Assembly: GCA_017694595.1 (NCBI GenBank)
Contig: JADIMT010000038.1
Location: forward strand, 1-45,185
DNA length: 45,185 bases
Direction: 5' to 3'
DNA from: Candidatus Ornithospirochaeta stercoripullorum
Lineage (GTDB): Bacteria; Spirochaetota; Spirochaetia; Sphaerochaetales; Sphaerochaetaceae
Shown piece by piece: positions 5,015-32,165 of the stretch. The translations under genes were made by a program, and so were the position numbers. How positions within the stretch are numbered: position 1 is the stretch's first letter; the number at the start of each line of letters is the position of its first letter. Under the pieces are notes generated by a model. The model worked only from the letters and a program-made list of their open reading frames with translations. It had not been told where the DNA came from and ran no database searches.

Positions 5015-5086
5015 GCAATTGGCTTAAACATCATCTGGAGAAAAAAAGAGGATAATCGACAGGCGGTAAATCTTCCCTCAATAAGC

Positions 5087-5100
5087 CCCGACACTTCGGG
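5087..5100 (+). other. hairpin in the toxin 5' leader
   Basis: CCCGA (5087-5091) and TCGGG (5096-5100) form a small stem that ends 4 bases before the GGGAGG ribosome site. Such leader structures limit translation of type I toxins; the role here is an inference. Confidence 0.35.
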
Positions 5101-5119
5101 CCAAGGGAGGTGATATCTG

Positions 5120-5188
5120 ATGCGTGATTACGAAATCATAATGATCGTGCTTACGGTCATTGGTCTCCTGATTGCTGTAGTAAGATAA
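5120..5188 (+). CDS. 22-residue holin-like (Hol-Tox/TxpA-BsrE type) membrane toxin
   Basis: This tiny gene encodes MRDYEIIMIVLTVIGLLIAVVR. It has a strong GGGAGGTGAT ribosome site 5 bases upstream. The pattern M-x-x-YE-x-x-M followed by one hydrophobic helix and a basic end matches the putative holin-like toxins of Firmicutes type I toxin-antitoxin loci (TxpA, BsrE, BsrG relatives), though those are usually 28-35 residues. The product would insert in the inner membrane. A strong terminator begins at the stop codon, giving the compact mRNA expected for such a toxin. No antitoxin protein is visible; a candidate antisense promoter lies downstream. The family is mostly Firmicutes, so transfer is likely. 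Confidence 0.65.
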   Translation: MRDYEIIMIVLTVIGLLIAVVR

Positions 5189-5226
5189 ACCGCCCTTATA
5201 GCTTTTCGCAGAAGCTGGGCGGTTTT
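5187..5226 (+). terminator. intrinsic terminator of the toxin mRNA
   Basis: The stem AAACCGCCC/GGGCGGTTTT, with an inner AGCTT/AAGCT helix, starts inside the stop codon and ends in four T residues. It may also be the site of pairing with an antisense RNA. Confidence 0.8.
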
Positions 5227-5284
5227 CGCTCTTAAAAACTTCTTGGGAAGCTTGCCTTCTATCGGCAGTGCCCTTTCTATAACA

Positions 5285-5313
5285 ATTCTCATAATCCATG
5301 CATAAATAGTCAA
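5285..5313 (-). promoter_or_regulatory. candidate antisense-RNA promoter facing the toxin gene
   Basis: On the minus strand TTGACT (5308-5313) is followed by a 17-base spacer and GAGAAT (5285-5290). Transcription from here would cross the toxin terminator and coding region. The match is suggestive, not strong. The rest of 5227-5445 holds no gene I recognise. Confidence 0.3.
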
Positions 5314-5445
5314 GGAAAACCGCACCTGTTTCCAGATTTCGCCTATATTCTACATCTTGCAGAAGATGGAAACTGCACAGGCTTTGTTCTGCAAACTCGC
5401 TTAGAAAAGCTATCAAGGATTAATCAACTTAAGCATGAACCAGTT

Positions 5446-8424
5446 TCAGTAATTAAGGATAATCACTTCATCGGATTCTGCATCTCTGTCCTTGATATGA
5501 TAATTCGAGTTTGAATAATCCCGCTTTACATGTATCACCCGATACTCTGGATGCTTTTCCAGCCAGGAAATGAGGAATGTATTCTCTCTGCCACGGCTTC
5601 TAAGAGTATTTGACAGTGCAAACCTGATGCCACGTGCTGTCAGATTCTCCAGAATCTCATGGAGCGAAGTCTCATCATTCTCTGTCCAGCCCTTCCTCTC
5701 ATTGTACGTTGCTGTCGTTACAAGATAAGGAGGATCCGCATAGACAAATGAACCGGATGGAATCTGGACTGTGCGGAAATCTGCATCCAGGAAGACCGCA
5801 TCAAGCTCTTTAATCCTATCAATGAAGATGGATAGCTTCTCTTGCATACGGCTGTTGAAGTCCCTCTTTCCAACGGGGAGATTGAAGGCTCCGTCATCAT
5901 TGAATCTGATCTGATTATTGAAGCCATATATGATAAGCACATAGAGCATGACAGCCCTCATATGCTCATCGAAAGAGCGTGAATTATAGTCCTCTCTGAG
6001 CTTATTGTATGCAGCTTTGTTCACATCCCCCAACCCTTTCGATGAATCTGCATGATAATATCCATATCCATGCACATCGCTTTGAGAAAGGCCATATGAT
6101 TTTATCACCTGCTTGATATCCTCAATGAAGCGATCCTTATCTGAACGCCTCATCTCTCTCAGGAGCGCTATAAGCCTAGCATCAGAATCATTGAAGATAA
6201 CGCGGCGGCAAGGGGCATTCACGCCTACAGTACAACCACCTGCAAAGAGATCCACAAATGTATCTATCTCAGGCGGAAACGCATCGAGCAAATCTGTGAT
6301 GATTCTGCCTTTGCCTCCTATATAATTCAATGGCGACTGTATGTAGCTTGTTTTTCTTGTTCTCTTCTGTCTGACGGCACAGAGGAAAACACGCTCCTCA
6401 TTGTCTTCTATATGGCTTTTACCCGCTGAAAATGCCCTGTGCTGGGTTGAGTAGACAGAGACCTCGCCTTTCTCTGAAAGCACTGAAAGTATAGTCTCAT
6501 CCGAGATTTTCGCATTGGAACGGCTGTCACCTTTATCGTGCATATTATTGTAGGAAAGGAGAATGTATTTAGCATCGATTGACGCAATAAGAGCCCGGAA
6601 AGCATCTTCAGCTTTAGATGTAGAATAGAGGCTCTTTATACATTTCCTGTCCATCTTCCCAGCCTTTCCTTTTACATCTGGCTTCTCCCATCTCGCGACA
6701 TTCTCAAGCAGGTGGTAGGCATCTGAATACTGGCGTGAGTTGTAAGGAGGATCGATATAGACAACATCCGCCTTGATACGTTTAACAAGCGCATTCGCAT
6801 CAGCGCAGAATATCTCATTGCTGCAATTATTTGTCTCATCCGCATCCAGCATCCGCATACATAGCACAGCGCTGAGATCCGCCCCTTCCCTATATGCATC
6901 ATAATGGCCACATGTCGCGGCAATCCTGTCCATGGCATAGAGAAGCGATACGATGAGAACAGCCCGCTCCCTGGCATTGAGCTCCCCTGTACGGAATCTG
7001 CGTTCTATATCCTCTCTGACAGCCCCTATCTTCCTGCAATTCTCACGAGAGAAATACGTGTCAGAGAAGTTATCGGACATATAGTTCTCTTCATCGGCAG
7101 CCATGCTGTTGTATTCATCTATCAAGCGCTCAAGCTTAGACTTGTCAAAGCTCTCAGGGGAGAACCAAGCGAGATTAGCCAGATAATTCGAATACAGAAA
7201 GTCATTGAGTATAAGCTTCTTGTCTCTGAAAGCATAGGAAACGGAACCGGTGCCGGAGAAGATATCAGCAAAGGAATCAAACGGCTGACAATGTTCATCC
7301 GCTATCTCCCTGATGAATCTCGTAATCCGGAATTTATTGCCAAGATATCTTCGGTTATTGATGGAGAAAAGCTTTCTATCCTCTCTCTTCTCTGCACTTC
7401 CCTCCTCTTTGCTTTCTTTTGGACCTATTACAGGCCATGAGCCGAACTCATGCTCTTCATAGCCTTTGAGAAGCCTGGCATCTTTCCGGATCTTTATATC
7501 GCTCAGCCTAGACAAGGAAGATACGCCATTTTTCTTCTCAGCAAACCAGATCTCATCGCGTCGTAGCATCGATATATCCATCAGTGTGATATCCTGCGAA
7601 GAAAAGAGAAAAGCAGCGCCATTCCTGTTGTATTTTCTATCCGTGAAAAGAGAGAGAATGAACCTGTGCAAAGCAGGATGGAGAGAAGGAAGGAAATCAT
7701 CACAGACGAGCATCTTTCCCCCATCAATGGCAGAAAAGAAGGATGGAAGGAATGCATACAGAGAAGCTAAGCCAGAACTCATCTCTTTCCTTGAAAGCTC
7801 AGCCTCCTCGAACCCCATGCACAGAAGCATGGCTTTTACTCTGCTATCGCAAGGAAGAGAAAGATTCACATCAGCAGAGGGGAAGATCAAGCACTCCGAA
7901 AGCCCTCTATATGCTTCGCTTATGACAGGGTTATCGGGATGTTCTGACATCATAACAGTCAAAAGAGGAACACACAGAGGCACATCACCGGCTCCTATCG
8001 ATTTCACCTGCCCATGATAACTCACCTCATTCTCAGTCCTGTTAAAGAGCAGAGAGGAACGCTTTTCACCAGAGAGCTTTTCAAGTCTTTCTTTCGCTAT
8101 CTCATCCCCTGAAATGGAAATCATGTATCTATAGACATTGCCAGCTGAAGAATATTCAAGCGTGAATGTACTCCCGTTCTGTTCTCTTAGCGATAGCGGG
8201 ATTGAAGCAGAGAGCAATGGCAGCGAGATAAATTCTACCACGCCTTTCAACGCTTCCAGCAAACTGCTCTTGCCGCTGCTGTTGGGGCCAAAAAGCGCAG
8301 TAACAGGCAGATACCCCCCATCATTAAGCGTTTCCTGGTTCTCTGTAAGCTGTGAACTTCTGAAAGAGATTGTGACAGGCTCTTTGAACGAACGAAAACC
8401 AGCGAGAGAAAAACTGTAAAGCAT
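5446..8424 (-). CDS. AAA15-type ATPase fused to two D12-class adenine-specific DNA methyltransferases
   Basis: This 992-residue protein has three parts. Residues 1-330 match COG1106 AAA15 ATPases: Walker A GPNSSGKS (46-53), a signature-like SSGL (216-219), Walker B-like LVCDD (239-243) before PSLHP, and the family's LRRDEIWF block. Residues 352-690 are a D12 N6-adenine methyltransferase of the COG3392 type: RRYLGNK, FSGTGS for SAM binding (389-394) and catalytic DPPY (558-561). Residues 693-992 are a Dam-like COG0338 methyltransferase: YIGGK, FAGG (727-730) and DPPY (897-900). Tandem D12 domains recall M.FokI, where each modifies one strand of an asymmetric site. I know of no described fusion with an AAA15 ATPase. 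No restriction nuclease is nearby. TTTGGAGG lies before the ATG. Confidence 0.88.
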   Translation of the reverse strand: MLYSFSLAGFRSFKEPVTISFRSSQLTENQETLNDGGYLPVTALFGPNSSGKSSLLEALKGVVEFISLPLLSASIPLSLREQNGSTFTLEYSSAGNVYRYMISISGDEIAKERLEKLSGEKRSSLLFNRTENEVSYHGQVKSIGAGDVPLCVPLLTVMMSEHPDNPVISEAYRGLSECLIFPSADVNLSLPCDSRVKAMLLCMGFEEAELSRKEMSSGLASLYAFLPSFFSAIDGGKMLVCDDFLPSLHPALHRFILSLFTDRKYNRNGAAFLFSSQDITLMDISMLRRDEIWFAEKKNGVSSLSRLSDIKIRKDARLLKGYEEHEFGSWPVIGPKESKEEGSAEKREDRKLFSINNRRYLGNKFRITRFIREIADEHCQPFDSFADIFSGTGSVSYAFRDKKLILNDFLYSNYLANLAWFSPESFDKSKLERLIDEYNSMAADEENYMSDNFSDTYFSRENCRKIGAVREDIERRFRTGELNARERAVLIVSLLYAMDRIAATCGHYDAYREGADLSAVLCMRMLDADETNNCSNEIFCADANALVKRIKADVVYIDPPYNSRQYSDAYHLLENVARWEKPDVKGKAGKMDRKCIKSLYSTSKAEDAFRALIASIDAKYILLSYNNMHDKGDSRSNAKISDETILSVLSEKGEVSVYSTQHRAFSAGKSHIEDNEERVFLCAVRQKRTRKTSYIQSPLNYIGGKGRIITDLLDAFPPEIDTFVDLFAGGCTVGVNAPCRRVIFNDSDARLIALLREMRRSDKDRFIEDIKQVIKSYGLSQSDVHGYGYYHADSSKGLGDVNKAAYNKLREDYNSRSFDEHMRAVMLYVLIIYGFNNQIRFNDDGAFNLPVGKRDFNSRMQEKLSIFIDRIKELDAVFLDADFRTVQIPSGSFVYADPPYLVTTATYNERKGWTENDETSLHEILENLTARGIRFALSNTLRSRGRENTFLISWLEKHPEYRVIHVKRDYSNSNYHIKDRDAESDEVIILNY

Positions 8425-8483
8425 GTGGCCTCCAAAGCTGTATTATGAGAAATTTTCTCACAAAACATGACAATTCACAATGC

Positions 8484-9233
8484 TTAACCGAAAATTCCAT
8501 CCAAAAGCATCATCAGTGCAAATCCAAGCGCGGCACCGACAGTCCCCACATTTGAATGATCCCCTTCAGAAGCTTCAGGAATCAGCTCCTCGACGACAAC
8601 ATAGAACATCGCACCTGCTGCAAATGCCAGCAGAAATGGAAGGAGAGAGGACAGCATGGAGACAAAGGCAAATGCTGCAATCGCTCCAACAGGCTCTACG
8701 ATACCTGAGACTGTTCCTTCCAGAAAAGCCCTTCCCCTGCTCTTTCCAGCTTTGTAGAGAGGGAGCGCAACAATCAGGCCTTCAGGGAAATTCTGCAAAG
8801 CAATACCAATGGAAAGCGCTAACGCAGATGAGTAGCCTATGCTCTCTCCCGAGGCAGCAGCCGCGGCACCAACAGCCATTCCCTCTGGAATGTTGTGAAG
8901 AGTGACAGCCAGCATCAGAAGCATCGATTTCGAGAGTCCTGATGCCTTTCCTTCAGCCTTTTCAGCTGTCACATGAATATGAGGGACGATAGTATCAAGG
9001 ATTAGAAGGAAAACAATTCCGCAAAGAAAGCCGAAAGCTGCCGTATAATACGAAGAGTCCTCTATCGCTGGCAACAACAGCGACCAGACAGAAGCTGCTA
9101 TCATCACGCCGCCAGCAAAGCCCGTAATCGCTTTGCCTGTCTTTTCGCCTATTTCCCCGCGGAGCACTGCAACAGCGGCAGATCCTAATACAGTTCCCAA
9201 GAATGGAACAATGAAGAGCAATGCAATTGACAT
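8484..9233 (-). CDS. ZIP-family divalent metal transporter
   Basis: A 249-residue inner-membrane protein with about eight helices that imports Zn2+ or related divalent metals. The two metal-binding motifs of the ZIP family are intact: HNIPEG (113-118, helix IV) and QNFPEG (147-152, helix V). The histidine-poor loop after helix III retains PHIH. The start codon has no Shine-Dalgarno, and an extended -10 sits 6 bases upstream, so a leaderless mRNA is predicted. It ends 59 bases before the methyltransferase fusion on the same strand and is divergent from the patatin gene. Confidence 0.9.
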   Translation of the reverse strand: MSIALLFIVPFLGTVLGSAAVAVLRGEIGEKTGKAITGFAGGVMIAASVWSLLLPAIEDSSYYTAAFGFLCGIVFLLILDTIVPHIHVTAEKAEGKASGLSKSMLLMLAVTLHNIPEGMAVGAAAAASGESIGYSSALALSIGIALQNFPEGLIVALPLYKAGKSRGRAFLEGTVSGIVEPVGAIAAFAFVSMLSSLLPFLLAFAAGAMFYVVVEELIPEASEGDHSNVGTVGAALGFALMMLLDGIFG

Positions 9234-9248: not shown

Positions 9249-9289
9249 CAACCAGCAGCATCAAATCTTCTCCCCGGACTGTTTTTGCA

Positions 9290-9318
9290 TTGTTGCAATC
9301 GGAATGCGATGTTAGAAT
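9290..9318 (+). promoter_or_regulatory. promoter of the patatin gene, very short leader
   Basis: TTGTTG (9290-9295), 17-base spacer, TAGAAT (9313-9318). Transcription should start near 9325, leaving about 8 bases before the ATG at 9333 and no Shine-Dalgarno. Confidence 0.5.
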
Positions 9319-9332
9319 CCTCTGGATTGATT

Positions 9333-10169
9333 ATGAAATATGCATTGATAGACATAGGTGGTGGCATGAGGGATGCTTTCGGGACAGGCGTCCTCGATTA
9401 CCTTCTTGACCAGAATATAGAGATTGATACGCTCATTGGCGTCTCTGCAGGGACCTCAAATCTTGCTAACTATATTTCAAGACAGAAAGGCAGAGTGCTC
9501 CGTTTCTATACAGAATATTCACAGAGGAAAGAATACATGGGACTCAGGGAGTTCATTCTCCATGGTTCCTATCTGAACATGGAGTATATCTATGAGGAAC
9601 TCTCATTCCCAGGAAAGGAAGATCCTTTTGATATCGATGCCTATACAAAAGCCGAGAAGGACTTCACTATAGTCGCAACCGACGCAAGAACTGGAGAAGC
9701 TGTATACTTCCCAAAGTCTTCAGTCAAACCTTTTTATATGAAGACCATAGAAGCCTCTGGCACAATACCACTGCTTTGCCGTCCCACATTCGTCAACGGC
9801 ATCCCCTATTTCGATGGTGGGATATCAGAACCGATACCCTGGAGGAAAGCCATAGAGAAAGGATGCGAGAAGCTTATCGTGATCATCACGAAAAGAAAGG
9901 ATGACTTCCGTTCCCCAGATAAAGACAAGCTGGCTGTAAAACTCCTGTCCAAGCGCTATCCACAGCTTTCAAAAGTCCTTTCTAAAAGAGCGGAGACATA
10001 CAACAGGGAACTTGAGGAAATACTGCAGATGGAGAGAGAAGGAACAGCACTGATTATAGCCCCAGATGACACATGCGGAGTGACCACGACAAAGCACAAC
10101 GAGGATGATATCAGAAGGCTTTATCGAAAAGGCTATGAGGCAGCTTCTGAAATAAAAGTTTTTTTGTGA
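9333..10169 (+). CDS. Patatin-like phospholipase, YjjU-type
   Basis: A 278-residue cytosolic serine acyl hydrolase of the patatin fold. The oxyanion motif IGGGMRDAFGTG (residues 8-19), nucleophile elbow GVSAGT with the catalytic Ser, and catalytic Asp in FDGGISEPIPW are all present. The layout follows the COG4667 (YjjU) group, which hydrolyses esters of phospholipids. The start at 9333 is used rather than the upstream ATG at 9285 because the conserved domain begins at MKYALIDIGGG and the predicted transcript starts after 9285. It converges on the V-ATPase operon. Confidence 0.88.
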   Translation: MKYALIDIGGGMRDAFGTGVLDYLLDQNIEIDTLIGVSAGTSNLANYISRQKGRVLRFYTEYSQRKEYMGLREFILHGSYLNMEYIYEELSFPGKEDPFDIDAYTKAEKDFTIVATDARTGEAVYFPKSSVKPFYMKTIEASGTIPLLCRPTFVNGIPYFDGGISEPIPWRKAIEKGCEKLIVIITKRKDDFRSPDKDKLAVKLLSKRYPQLSKVLSKRAETYNRELEEILQMEREGTALIIAPDDTCGVTTTKHNEDDIRRLYRKGYEAASEIKVFL

Positions 10170-18775: not shown

Positions 18776-19948
18776 TTAGGTGCATTGCTGCACGGTCGTC
18801 CACATTGGGCATCTCCGGAGGCTTAACTTCGCCAGCGTCCCTGCTAGAGCCTTCAGGCCAAAGGATTCAAGATTCAGAGCCGCATTCCAGTCCCGATCAT
18901 GCCTGGTATGGCACACGGGGCATTCCCACTCCCTGTCACGGAGCGTGAGGCCTTCATTGTGCCAGCCGCAGTTATGGCAAGTCCTTGATGAAGCAAAGAA
19001 CCTGTCTGCTGTTATCAGCGTCTTCCCATACCAGAGACATTTGTATCCAAGCTGCCTCCTAATCTCGGAGAATGACGCATCCTGTATGTGCCTCGAGAGA
19101 TTATGGTTCTTTAACATCCCGGATACATTCAGGTCCTCGATGACTATAGCATCTGCTTGGCTATCGCAGACGATGCTCTTCGTCATCTTATGTATTGCAT
19201 CCTTCCTGATGTTGGCTATCTTCTCATGAAGCGCTGCTATCTCTGTCTTCAGCTTCTTCCAGTTCTCAGAGCCTTTGCTCTTCTTCGCCAGGAGCTTCTG
19301 CTTGCGCTTTAGGCGCTTCCCATAATGCCTCAGCGTTCTTGGATTCTCGTACTCTGTACCGTCCGAGCATACAGCGAGACGCTCAAGGTTGAGGTCGATG
19401 CCAAACACCTTCGGCTTATCCGGCACGGTAGGTGCAGGAAGCTCAGCGCCGTCATCGAAGAGGCATGAGGCATATACTGCACCTGATGGGGTCATAGTCA
19501 CAGTGATGTTCTTGAGCTTTCCTACGGGCTTCCTGTGTATGACGGCATCCACCCAGCCTACGCCCTGTACGTAGACGCGGTTATTGCCAACATCCACCTT
19601 TCCCCTCTGCGGGGTCCTGTAGCTCTTCTTCGAGCAGTGCTTTGTCTTGAATCTTGGGTACTTCGCATTCCCCCTGAAGAATGCCTTGAATGCTGAGATC
19701 AGATCTGCCGATACGCACTGCAGCGTCTGGGCAGGCGCATCTGAGAGCCATGGGAAAGCCGGCTTGAGGATATGCGCAATGAAATTATTGAGGTCAAATG
19801 CCGTATGGCTCTCCCCACGACTCCTATAGGACTTGGAGCAGTATTCCAGAAGGCGGTTCCAGACAAAGCGGCAGCAGCCGATGATGCGTGTCATCATCTG
19901 CCTCTCGTCATCTGTTGGATTAAGCCTGTAGCGGTACGCCTTCTGCAT
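18776..19948 (-). CDS. tnpB: TnpB, RNA-guided endonuclease of an IS200/IS605-family element
   Basis: An intact 390-residue TnpB. It has the N-terminal helix-turn-helix domain (YRYRLNPTDDERQ), the split RuvC site with D185 (GIDLNLERL), E271 (VIEDLNVSG) and D353 (RDWNAALN), and a zinc finger with Cys324, 327, 343 and 346. All catalytic residues are kept. No tnpA (Y1 transposase) lies within the window, so the copy is either non-autonomous or moved in trans. A TATAAT sits 6 bases before the ATG. A TTCGTAT/ATACGAA inverted repeat upstream may be the left-end hairpin. Confidence 0.93.
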   Translation of the reverse strand: MQKAYRYRLNPTDDERQMMTRIIGCCRFVWNRLLEYCSKSYRSRGESHTAFDLNNFIAHILKPAFPWLSDAPAQTLQCVSADLISAFKAFFRGNAKYPRFKTKHCSKKSYRTPQRGKVDVGNNRVYVQGVGWVDAVIHRKPVGKLKNITVTMTPSGAVYASCLFDDGAELPAPTVPDKPKVFGIDLNLERLAVCSDGTEYENPRTLRHYGKRLKRKQKLLAKKSKGSENWKKLKTEIAALHEKIANIRKDAIHKMTKSIVCDSQADAIVIEDLNVSGMLKNHNLSRHIQDASFSEIRRQLGYKCLWYGKTLITADRFFASSRTCHNCGWHNEGLTLRDREWECPVCHTRHDRDWNAALNLESFGLKALAGTLAKLSLRRCPMWTTVQQCT

Positions 19949-22326: not shown

Positions 22327-22328
22327 AG

Positions 22329-22400
22329 AGCGGAAAACGGGACTTGAACCCGCGACATCCACCTTGGCAAGGTGGAGCTCTACCACTGAGCTATTTCCGC
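22329..22400 (-). tRNA. tRNA-Gly (GCC)
   Basis: Cloverleaf with acceptor GCGGAAA/TTTCCGC, D-arm, anticodon loop with GCC, and T-loop GGTTCAAGTCC. CCA is not encoded. Last tRNA of the array. Confidence 0.95.
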
Positions 22401-22432
22401 ATATGCCGTATGCCCGCCAAGCTTAGGTTTCG

Positions 22433-22512
22433 TGCGAGAGGCGGGACTCGAACCCGCACACCGAAGTACTAGTTCCTAAGACTAGCGTGTATACCAGTTT
22501 CACCACTCTCGC
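22433..22512 (-). tRNA. tRNA-Leu (TAG)
   Basis: Acceptor GCGAGAG/CTCTCGC, anticodon TAG, and T-loop GGTTCGAGTCC. A short extra arm is consistent with leucine. Confidence 0.93.
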
Positions 22513-22519
22513 GGTGCTC

Positions 22520-22592
22520 TGAGCCGCAAAGGGATCGAACCTTTGACCCACAGATTAAGAGTCTGCTGCTCTACCAGCTGAGCTAGCGGCCC
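22520..22592 (-). tRNA. tRNA-Lys (CTT)
   Basis: Acceptor GGGCCGC/GCGGCTC with one G-T pair, anticodon loop CTCTTAA with CTT, and T-loop GGTTCGATCCC. Confidence 0.93.
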
Positions 22593-22598
22593 ATTCTT

Positions 22599-22671
22599 TG
22601 CGCCCTGTAGGACTCGAACCTACAACCTGCGGATTCGAAGTCCGACGCTCTATCCGTTGAGCTAAGAGCGC
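22599..22671 (-). tRNA. tRNA-Arg (TCG)
   Basis: Acceptor GCGCTCT/AGGGCGC, anticodon loop CTTCGAA with TCG, and T-loop GGTTCGAGTCC. Confidence 0.93.
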
Positions 22672-22694
22672 TCTTCCTCCATCGGAGGTAGTAG

Positions 22695-22767
22695 GGTGGA
22701 AGAAGGGGATCGAACCCTCGACAAGCAGATCCACAATCTGCCGCTCTACCGCTGAACTACTTCCACC
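22695..22767 (-). tRNA. tRNA-His (GTG)
   Basis: Acceptor GTGGAAG/CTTCCAC with the extra G(-1) opposite C73 that marks histidine, anticodon GTG. First tRNA of the five-gene array. Confidence 0.93.
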
Positions 22768-29070: not shown

Positions 29071-30135
29071 ATGAAAGGGAAATATAGATACGTACCTGGA
29101 ACAATACTGCTTTGTCTCGCTCTTATCGGATTCATCACTGAGCAAATTCCTGGCTGGATGTCATTTCTTCTGCTAATCGCTTCCTGTATCCAGATGATTT
29201 ATGCTAGCCGTGGTACAGGCATCTATAACAAAGCAATTAAGCTAATCAACAAAGGCAACATGACAGAAGGCGTCGCACTGATGAAAAAAGCCCTTATTGC
29301 GGGACTTTCAGATTCTGATGCCGTAGTCGCTGCAGCGTTAGTATTGCAAAATGATGATGCTGAGCTGGCAAAAGAGACTCTGGAAAGACTGACAAAAGCT
29401 TCCGATGGGAAAATCGCGGGAAGCGCGCTCGCATACCTCTCCATGTACTATTGGATGCAACAGGATTACAGCCAAGCTATAGCTCTATGTGAGAAAGCAA
29501 AAGCAAACGGCTACTCTTCAAGGAATCTGCAAGTAAACCTTCTCACCTATTACCTAGCAGCAGGCAAGACAAAAGAATTCTCCGCTCTTGTCGATGAGAT
29601 TGGAACCAGTGGTGCCTCATCCCCTGCTATCGTAGATTTCATCGCTGTACGTGAAATGCTTCGTGGAGGCTGGCTACAAGCTGGCACATATCTCCAAGCG
29701 TTATGCAATGAAGCAACTCCTGCTTTTCCAGATCCCTATGTGCATTTTGCACAAGTCTATCTGCACTATGGTGACTTAGAGAAAGCCAGAGAAGCGTTGA
29801 AAAAAGCAGAAATCAAGGAATACGCAAAATACTCTGTCTACAAAAGAGAGATGGTCTCCGAAATGCTTAGGATCATATCAGATTCAAAGGAATGTGTACC
29901 ATTCACACAGGCTGCTAACAGAGACAACAAAGCTATAGTGAAGATTGCAAATGGACAGATTCCAGCATATACCCCAAGCGAGGAAGAATTCCTGCTCCCA
30001 GTCATTCCAGGATACCCCGCTGAGCCCGATTTCTCCGCTACTCTAAAACAAGAGGAGTCCCTGGACGATGAAAGAGAAATCTCAACAGACCTTACAGCGT
30101 CAGATGAGGAATGGCTGAAAAAGCATCATGAGTGA
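29071..30135 (+). CDS. TPR-repeat membrane protein, unknown function
   Basis: A 354-residue protein with two membrane helices at residues 8-45 and then a cytoplasmic or periplasmic part made of helical pairs of the TPR/Sel1 type (for example AIKLINKGNMTEGVALMKKAL, and the stretch around residues 225-250 with GDLEKAREALKKAE). The last 70 residues are acidic and probably disordered. Likely a scaffold for protein contacts; no specific partner can be named. Its end overlaps the patatin-barrel gene by 10 bases (convergent). GGAAGG lies 12 bases before the ATG. Confidence 0.75.
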   Translation: MKGKYRYVPGTILLCLALIGFITEQIPGWMSFLLLIASCIQMIYASRGTGIYNKAIKLINKGNMTEGVALMKKALIAGLSDSDAVVAAALVLQNDDAELAKETLERLTKASDGKIAGSALAYLSMYYWMQQDYSQAIALCEKAKANGYSSRNLQVNLLTYYLAAGKTKEFSALVDEIGTSGASSPAIVDFIAVREMLRGGWLQAGTYLQALCNEATPAFPDPYVHFAQVYLHYGDLEKAREALKKAEIKEYAKYSVYKREMVSEMLRIISDSKECVPFTQAANRDNKAIVKIANGQIPAYTPSEEEFLLPVIPGYPAEPDFSATLKQEESLDDEREISTDLTASDEEWLKKHHE

Positions 30136-32129
30136 AACTTCAGCGTAAATAGGAATGAAGACACGAAGCTATTAGCCAGCGAATCATATCCCAATCTTAT
30201 TCTCAGCGGAAGCTTTGTCAGACCAAGCATTGAGATTGCGATCTGGGCTTCAGCTCCCGTTGAGAACGATACAGCAGCATCGTGGAAGAGCACATCGCAA
30301 TACAAAGAGACTTCCATATCTTCGAATAGAAGGAACTCGCTTGCTGTCGGCGTCTGTGGAAAATCATAGCCAATGCTGAAACTGAGAATGGTATTATGGT
30401 AATCGGATAGACGGGCATATCCACTGCCTGTCCCCAATGCTGTGCTAGTATATCCATCGGACAGGAAGAGCGGAACATCACCTTTTCCATCAATAGCTAT
30501 ACGGGAAAAAACACCAAGATCGGCAAACCACTGTGTTGCTACAGGTACTCTGAAACGTGTAGAAGCGGATAGCTCAAGATAATTATGCATTGACCAGAAA
30601 GCAGTATCATCGGAAGTAAGAAGATAGCCCAGTGTCGCATAGATATCAAAATACCAGATAGAGTATGAACCATCAGCTACAAGCGAGAATGTCATAGCCG
30701 TATTGTTCTGGGCAAATCCAGTACTAAGCTCTAAAGCTTGCTTGAGCCTGAGATCATACAAATCCCTACTATGCATTATGACCCAGTCAAATCCCTGCCT
30801 AAGATAGACATTCGGAATGTACCAAGGGTCATGGCAAAGTGTTACTGACATATCAAGAGTCAGGCGAAGCATATCCAGTGGATAGTACCTGAAGAAACCA
30901 CCTACAAGTGGATAAGCCGCTGCGACAGCATGTGTAGAGAGATCGAAAGCAACTCCAACGTCAGCACCCGTCTCAATTCCGTCCTTCCTGAATTCATATT
31001 CCAGCGTCAGGTCAGCAGTATCATTCAGATAGCTTCTATACTTGCCGCCCTGATCGGAATCGAAGGAGAATGTAAGGCTCTGCTGTACAGAAGCCGCATC
31101 GATACGGTTGAAATACTCAAGATCACGGATAGCTGACTCGATTTTATGATCAAGCTGTGCCCTTTTTGAAACAAGGTTATCAGCAAGTCCTGAATGATAC
31201 ACGTCCTGAAGTTCTTCGCTATGTTCTGCTGCACTTCTGTATCCAATACTCTTCATCAAATCAGCCTTACCGAAATCCATGAATGAGAAATCCTCGACCG
31301 CACAGCGAATCCAGATAAAATTCTCATATTTCTTCAGCGCGTCCGCAGTCTTCTGGCTTTTTCCGATATCAAAAGAAGTGTTCAGAACTGTTATTGCATC
31401 TTTCAAGTTCACATCTGCCGCATTGTAGAACGATGTAGAAACTATAACTGTGTCCGTATACTCATACGCAGCCTCCAGCGGCAACAAAGAGATAACTCCT
31501 CCATCTATGAGAAGATGTCCCTTATATTCCCTAGGAGGAAAATAGAAAGGAAGCGCGAAAGATGCTAGAAGTACATCTGTAAAATCACCTTCCGTGATTC
31601 TCACCTCACGCTTAGTGACTAAATCATCACAGACAACCATAACAGGAATGTCCAAGTCTTCAAGCCGTGTGTCAGGTCCAACGATTGCCTCAACCAGCGC
31701 TTCAAGACCTGAAGGAAGAATCATTCCACCCTCCAGCGGAAGTGTTAGACTGAAAAGAGTGGAAAGGTCTGATGATATCAGAAGTTCAATAATCTGGTCA
31801 GGAGTCAAACCCGCTGCATACAGCATTGCAATAATCGATCCCATAGAGTTCGAGATGATGAAATCAGGAACTATGCCATTCTCTTCCAGATACTCAAGCA
31901 CACCCAGATGAGAAAGCGCCCTTGCGGAACCTCCAGTAAGGACAAGCCCTATCGGATCCCGGCTTCCACCTGTTTTTTCCAATATCCTTTCTCTAAAGCC
32001 TTCATCACCATAAGTAATGGGTATATCTGAAACGATTACATCCGCACCGAGTCCGGGGACATCGGAAGCCGCAACTGAAAAAGCAAATAGAATAGAGGCA
32101 AAAATAACTGTAAACAAGCGCCTGAGCAT
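30126..32129 (-). CDS. Secreted patatin-like protein with C-terminal outer-membrane beta barrel
   Basis: A 667-residue protein. A signal peptide (about residues 1-21) leads to a patatin domain (about 35-270) and a C-terminal region (about 350-667) of alternating amphipathic strands typical of an outer-membrane barrel, so the lipase domain would be periplasmic or surface-exposed, as in the PlpD type Vd group. Catalytic Ser sits in ISNSMGS and Asp in LIDGGVISLLP. The nucleophile elbow is S-N-S-M-G instead of G-x-S-x-G, and the oxyanion motif is GGSARA instead of GGGARG, so activity may be altered. The start at 32129 fits the promoter and signal peptide; the ATG at 32165 would add 12 residues before it. 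Confidence 0.85.
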   Translation of the reverse strand: MLRRLFTVIFASILFAFSVAASDVPGLGADVIVSDIPITYGDEGFRERILEKTGGSRDPIGLVLTGGSARALSHLGVLEYLEENGIVPDFIISNSMGSIIAMLYAAGLTPDQIIELLISSDLSTLFSLTLPLEGGMILPSGLEALVEAIVGPDTRLEDLDIPVMVVCDDLVTKREVRITEGDFTDVLLASFALPFYFPPREYKGHLLIDGGVISLLPLEAAYEYTDTVIVSTSFYNAADVNLKDAITVLNTSFDIGKSQKTADALKKYENFIWIRCAVEDFSFMDFGKADLMKSIGYRSAAEHSEELQDVYHSGLADNLVSKRAQLDHKIESAIRDLEYFNRIDAASVQQSLTFSFDSDQGGKYRSYLNDTADLTLEYEFRKDGIETGADVGVAFDLSTHAVAAAYPLVGGFFRYYPLDMLRLTLDMSVTLCHDPWYIPNVYLRQGFDWVIMHSRDLYDLRLKQALELSTGFAQNNTAMTFSLVADGSYSIWYFDIYATLGYLLTSDDTAFWSMHNYLELSASTRFRVPVATQWFADLGVFSRIAIDGKGDVPLFLSDGYTSTALGTGSGYARLSDYHNTILSFSIGYDFPQTPTASEFLLFEDMEVSLYCDVLFHDAAVSFSTGAEAQIAISMLGLTKLPLRIRLGYDSLANSFVSSFLFTLKFHS

Positions 32130-32135
32130 GGTTAT

Positions 32136-32165
32136 ACAATACTCTGAAGTTGATTGAAAACTCAA
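32136..32165 (-). promoter_or_regulatory. leaderless promoter of the patatin-barrel gene
   Basis: Minus strand TTGAGT (32160-32165), 18-base spacer, TATTGT (32136-32141), 6 bases to the ATG at 32129. Confidence 0.5.

Follow-up and report, generated by a model that had tools for sequence, protein, structure and literature searches.

M.FokI carries tandem D12 methyltransferases of an asymmetric site. In AlwI-type Type IIS systems, according to a review, a single chain contains two methyltransferases, one acting on GGATC and the other on GATCC (PMC4081073); a second paper assigns GAGTC/GASTC and SfaNI-like members to the same family (PMC9799307). AbiL/RloA-RloB systems pair an AbiLi-type ATPase with a TOPRIM-like AbiLii protein. 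AAA proteins that partner TOPRIM nucleases are regarded as antitoxins (PMC10440598), and the related ATPase AriA forms a hexamer that holds the nuclease AriB (PMC11455837).

Parts of two such systems are joined in one gene of Candidatus Ornithospirochaeta stercoripullorum. The window—the whole 45,185-nucleotide stretch of contig JADIMT010000038.1 that was analysed—contains, on its minus strand, a single open frame of 992 residues with an ATG start and a base composition similar to that of the surrounding DNA. Its features, and its conserved neighbour, are as follows.

5446..8424, minus strand: fusion gene, 992 aa, RloA/AbiLi-type ATPase domain and two D12 N6-adenine methyltransferase domains (Pfam, PADLOC)
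8429..8433, minus strand: GGAGG, probable ribosome-binding site, lying 4 nt before the ATG of the fusion gene
7375..8424, minus strand: ATPase domain, residues 1–350 (AAA_21, AbiLi model, tree position beside same-genus RloA)
8266..8289, minus strand: Walker A GPNSSGKS, residues 46–53 (sequence)
7696..7716, minus strand: Walker B KMLVCDD, residues 237–243, with Asp243 where the catalytic Glu is expected (alignment with homologues)
7594..7596, minus strand: H-loop position, Gln277 instead of His (alignment with homologues)
7549..7563, minus strand: RRDEI motif, residues 288–292, retained from the RloA family (alignment)
6367..7365, minus strand: methyltransferase domain 1, residues 354–686, DPPY at 558–561 (Pfam, PADLOC, motifs)
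5449..6342, minus strand: methyltransferase domain 2, Dam/T4 Dam-like, residues 695–992, DPPY at 897–900 (T4 Dam match, TIGR00571)
5863..5913, minus strand: presumed target-reading stretch of domain 2, residues 838–854 (alignment with T4 Dam)
8484..9233, minus strand: ZIP-family transporter gene, directly upstream, a conserved neighbour outside the claimed function (annotation)

The three-part composition reported in a preliminary description of this DNA, made from the sequence alone, is borne out by Pfam and PADLOC. The PADLOC AbiLi model spans residues 1–350 (E 7.9e-56) and one tandem methyltransferase model spans residues 354–992 (719.6 bits); Pfam MethyltransfD12 matches in two stretches (218.4 bits). 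Walker A lies at the residues that the description had named, and both methyltransferase domains are complete, as it had claimed, each with its own DPPY and SAM-type motif (FADIFSGTG at 385–393 in domain 1; FVDLFAGGC at 723–731 in domain 2). Domain 2 matches T4 Dam (1yfj_A, E 9e-43) and TIGR00571 (175.6 bits). The earlier term AAA15 ATPase survives as far as a P-loop ATPase is meant (Pfam AAA_21, 63.1 bits against a cut-off of 27), but AAA_15 itself scores 25.5 bits, below its cut-off of 32.1. Both DPPY motifs and RRDEI are invariant in an alignment of 10 fusion proteins, and no effector domain was found in the fusion protein.

The ATPase half has the defence-type ancestry proposed for it, being closest to RloA/AbiLi by both PADLOC and tree. 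In the ATPase tree, the 14 untruncated fusion domains group together (100/100), and their sister group consists of seven accessory RloA proteins from the same genus (99/97); L044, being truncated, was left out of this tree and of the mean identities. These seven all possess the Walker B Glu and the H-loop His, within intact DELDAKLHP and TSHD motifs, and each adjoins an RloB match (by coordinates, with Pfam for one). The fusions have diverged at these positions: all 15 have another residue instead of the Walker B Glu (an acidic Asp in the window protein), the H-loop His persists in L039 but is lost from the other 14, and L043 and L044 also lack the Walker B Asp. The P-loop Lys is kept in 12 of the 14 fusions having this region, with Arg in L042 and L043; RRDEI is retained in 14 of 15 (RRDGI in L040) and RKDAR in all 15. 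In a PDB profile search, the ATPase alignment weakly matched ABC-type ATPases, those of OLD and retron systems among them, as well as more distant P-loop proteins.

Across eight pairs of fusion genes, with dS near saturation, dN/dS is 0.13–0.31 for the ATPase part versus 0.04–0.13 for the methyltransferase parts; for the pair L041/L042 the values are nearly equal (ATPase 0.14, methyltransferase domain 2 0.13). The ATPase domain is still under purifying selection, and its dN is 2.4–4.7 times that of the methyltransferase parts. The 15 fusion contigs are all free of RloB matches. At genome level, seven of the 15 carriers have a single RloB match and eight have two or more, and thus an accessory RloB is not required.

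The genus has a second RloA-type ATPase, found in 48 of 48 genomes (seemingly in pieces in G006 and G066, each with two matches). Examples are G000:C48:10032-11372 (L252) and L236, L241, L243, L244, L246, L247 and L248. It always stands beside an RloB match on the same contig; 46 of the 48 genomes have an RloB match that exceeds the family cut-off. The seven sequences that we read have degenerate motifs (IDDF for DE, DCN for SHD), and the genus-wide pair looks domesticated. The accessory RloB match in the window's own genome, G000:C26:6918-7448, has one TGA inside the match.

For the methyltransferase half, 293 relatives were confirmed in named genomes, and we fetched the 80 best: 14 fusions from the genus and 66 outside sequences, with many Clostridia among the latter. 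These 66 outside relatives have the two methyltransferases in one chain (646–783 aa) or as two genes (L075, for example), with the same domain order as the fusion and 50–56% identity over the best segment. Using our own HMM (E ≤ 1e-8), an AlwI-family endonuclease was located within the fetched stretch at 59 of the 66 loci, two of the 59 being fragments of less than 100 aa; six representatives were confirmed as Pfam PF09491 (E 1e-66 to 1e-79). The comparison with M.FokI made in the preliminary description agrees in the two-domain architecture and in nothing further that we found; the nearest relatives are linked to AlwI-family endonucleases.

The same HMM search detected no AlwI-family endonuclease at the fusion loci, and none in any of the 48 genus genomes; the genome search gave no match in 14 standard control genomes and did match G058, G129 and G403 of the class. 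In its descent and in the lack of a cognate nuclease in these searches, the fusion has the marks of an orphan methyltransferase, although some nuclease from a different family may be present. That no nuclease is visible within 5 kb, as first described, agrees with the named neighbours and with a PADLOC search of six neighbouring ORFs, which returned no match. In the methyltransferase tree, which left out the outside relatives with separate methyltransferase genes, the fusion proteins form one clade (SH-aLRT 100, 15 rows), which a long stem of about 1.0 separates from the AlwI-linked enzymes. Many outside AlwI-linked methyltransferases have about 70 extra residues at the N-terminus, where the fusion has its ATPase.

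By eye, this extension (for example, in L060:5845-7974) resembles a helix-turn-helix; two that were scanned had no Pfam match. Three Lachnospiraceae loci (L091, L099 and L105) have methyltransferase relatives and no AlwI-family nuclease in the stretch fetched (only 3 kb for L105). They have a common neighbour cluster, including a short-chain dehydrogenase by Pfam in L091, and are perhaps an independent orphan lineage. The stretches of L092, L097, L098 and L108 are likewise without an AlwI-family nuclease.

Aligning domain 2 with T4 Dam places R840, N842, P850 and R854 opposite R116, N118, P126 and R130, which we take to be the T4 Dam residues that read GATC; Q838 aligns with T4 Dam M114. The four residues are invariant in 10 fusions and at least 90% conserved when 18 outside methyltransferases are added. 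On its own, this alignment only suggests a GATC core for domain 2. Taken together, the AlwI kinship and the conservation of the T4 Dam-aligned residues make GGATC/GATCC the best guess, and the pair probably modifies one strand at GGATC and the opposite one at GATCC. A change of target is conceivable, given the long stem that separates the fusion methyltransferases from the AlwI-linked ones and the other targets known in the AlwI family. Among 5-mers, GGATC is weakly enriched in the fusion clade (z 1.94); this statistic is confounded, coming from one clade with overlapping loci in both sets, and is not counted as support.

Within the genus, the methyltransferase half is present in 15 of 48 genomes, always inside a frame of 869–1,050 aa with no internal stops (the 869-aa frame, in G030, is cut by a contig end). 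Such uninterrupted frames in 15 genomes from independent assemblies exclude the frameshift or assembly artefact that had been named as a possible refutation. An rpoB tree (quick method, midpoint root, long branches for G011 and for the group G013, G022, G031 and G060) was built for 46 of the 48 genomes, leaving out G002, which has no rpoB, and G005, which has a fragment. The 15 carriers and one non-carrier, G006 (87% complete), make up one group (SH-aLRT 99), so that the gene occurs in 15 of 16 members of that group versus none of the 30 other rows. This distribution needs two changes on the tree, and none of 500 shuffles did as well.

The domain order and the conserved neighbours were looked for in genomes, as had been proposed. 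The ZIP gene is upstream of the fusion in 13 of 15 genomes (12 loci read directly, G069 from coordinates), with a small ORF between the two in G029. In G061 V-ATPase genes come first and ZIP is on another contig; in G030 the contig ends at the place where the ZIP gene would stand. On the opposite side, MATE, histidine phosphatase and/or P-type ATPase genes are found in 13 of the 14 loci read, sometimes beyond an extra ORF, and were not seen in the stretch fetched for G064. Fifteen regions from non-carriers have the ZIP gene; the gene next to it is something other than the fusion in 14, and the contig ends there in G035. The named neighbours in the window are P-type ATPase, MATE, histidine phosphatase, ZIP, patatin and V-ATPase subunit genes; a 112-aa ORF at 5078-5416 has no Pfam match. 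The fusion has a single origin and has been inherited by descent in one clade, in one chromosomal neighbourhood. A mobile defence island was considered and finds no support in the common neighbourhood or the rpoB tree.

Outside the genus, none of the 65 loci with a visible N-terminus among the best 80 of the 293 confirmed relatives has the ATPase fusion (the N-terminus of L078, the 66th outside locus, is cut by the contig start); the remaining 213 relatives may still include one. In 394 genomes of the class, a sample of a larger group, 27 non-genus genomes matched at E ≤ 1e-40, in frames of at most 731 aa. Two loci on viral contigs matched, in the ATPase part only, and phage records had no place covering 80% of the query. 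Plasmids provided 63 records with kindred methyltransferases (at least 80% of the query covered), all less than 60% identical.

Four other features of the window are recorded here.

18776-19948, minus strand: IS605 OrfB/TnpB-type gene (OrfB_IS605, Cas12f1-like TNB domain; PADLOC Cas12f-like matches)
9285-10169, plus strand: patatin-like gene with DUF6363, adjoining the ZIP gene
30126-32165, minus strand: second patatin-domain gene
22328-22766, minus strand: five-tRNA cluster (Gly, Leu, Lys, Arg, His)

We consider the protein to be, with reasonable though not strong confidence, a nuclease-free bifunctional N6-adenine methyltransferase of AlwI type, carrying a former RloA/AbiLi ATPase in front as a scaffold and laying down a mark used by the host. 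Its two methyltransferase domains would each act on one strand of a single asymmetric site, with GGATC/GATCC the likeliest. Judging from the motif pattern, the ATPase part would still bind ATP in most species and would lack efficient ATP hydrolysis. As a scaffold it would oligomerise, dock on DNA or respond to nucleotide, and would set the position of the methyltransferases or hold back their activity. By analogy, the AriA hexamer and the antitoxin role of AAA partners make a binding rather than a motor role plausible for this descendant. The methylation could serve the host in epigenetic regulation, in replication or repair marking, or as standing protection; an epigenetic role is possible and is the reading that we favour.

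Were standing protection the whole story, the genome would be pre-methylated as a vaccine against AlwI-type systems of invading elements or gut neighbours, with the ATPase as a scaffold. In favour of this, AlwI-type systems with kindred methyltransferases are common among the genomes fetched (59 of 66 loci), many of them gut Clostridia, kindred methyltransferases are also found on plasmids (the 63 records), and the 48 genus genomes yielded no AlwI-family nuclease. We nevertheless judge it unlikely, as it leaves the selection on the ATPase domain unexplained and there is no sign of the clade meeting AlwI-type systems more than others do. Alternatively, the ATPase part might be a leftover with only a folding task, tolerated before an active orphan methyltransferase. 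Its faster divergence (the 2.4–4.7-fold higher dN over eight pairs), the Arg for P-loop Lys in L042 and L043 and the lost Walker B Asp in L043 and L044 would fit such a relic. The domain is, however, present in 15 of 15 fusions (that of G030 being cut by the contig end only), with dN/dS well under 1 and with the P-loop Lys (12 of 14), RRDEI (14 of 15) and RKDAR (15 of 15) retained, which makes this an improbable account.

The preliminary description had gone further, inferring an all-in-one modification and sensing protein, possibly of an undescribed defence or epigenetic system; on the defence reading, infection would be sensed by the ATPase and self DNA marked by the methyltransferases. RloA/AbiLi ATPases do belong to abortive-infection pairs (PADLOC AbiLi; PMC10440598), and motifs are retained in both methyltransferase domains. 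Against a single-protein anti-phage system stand the lack of an effector domain in the fusion protein, of a known nuclease among the named neighbours (some small ORFs in congeners are without annotation) and of an RloB match on the 15 fusion contigs. The hydrolysis-associated residues are lost, and one housekeeping neighbourhood with descent in one clade is unlike mobile defence genes. Active all-in-one defence is not supported, and we think it quite unlikely. It is very unlikely that the ATPase part retains the antitoxin role of RloA/AbiLi, restraining a trans-encoded RloB-type TOPRIM-like nuclease (an RloB match occurs in 48 of 48 genus genomes) that hypomethylated DNA, or loss or inhibition of the enzyme, would release, with the fused methyltransferases tying this restraint to methylation of the host's DNA; if true, this would be a one-protein guard of epigenetic integrity.

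Each part of the fusion is of a known kind, and the combination is one for which we found no description: a literature search of titles and the starts of abstracts, with most subscription papers out of its scope, returned no publication describing an ATPase–twin methyltransferase fusion. The apparent evolutionary step is the merging of parts of a restriction system and of an abortive-infection ATPase in one gene, with the cutter gone, the conserved catalytic residues of the ATPase worn and the product now a stable chromosomal gene of a spirochaete clade. The fusion predicts a clade-wide methylation mark, and it offers a concrete case for studying the part that a hydrolysis-deficient defence ATPase plays when attached to a DNA methyltransferase.

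Set beside AlwI-type Type IIS systems, the fusion shares tandem D12/Dam-like methyltransferases in one chain with SAM and DPPY motifs, and AlwI-linked methyltransferases (59 of 66 loci) are the closest homologues of its methyltransferase half. It differs in having no PF09491 endonuclease at its locus or in the 48 genus genomes searched, and in bearing an ATPase domain in place of the extension of about 70 aa. To AbiL/RloA-RloB it is related through a homologous ATPase domain, including the P-loop and the RRDEI- and RKDAR-type motifs. Unlike those pairs, it has no adjacent RloB/AbiLii, is joined to methyltransferases and has the Walker B Glu in 0 of 15 and the H-loop His in 1 of 15. With M.FokI, compared by architecture alone, the likeness is that a single chain has two D12 domains; the closest relatives that we found for the fusion methyltransferases are AlwI-linked instead. 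An extra domain on a DNA methyltransferase is also described for Ecl18kI, EcoRII and SsoII, where it is a repressor helix-turn-helix rather than an ATPase-fold domain (PMC12707154). Cran1, an OLD-class ATPase, is an archaeal ATPase-nickase without a methyltransferase (PMC12796447); as here, a lineage has conserved a defence-type ATPase class and apparently employs it for something other than antiviral defence.
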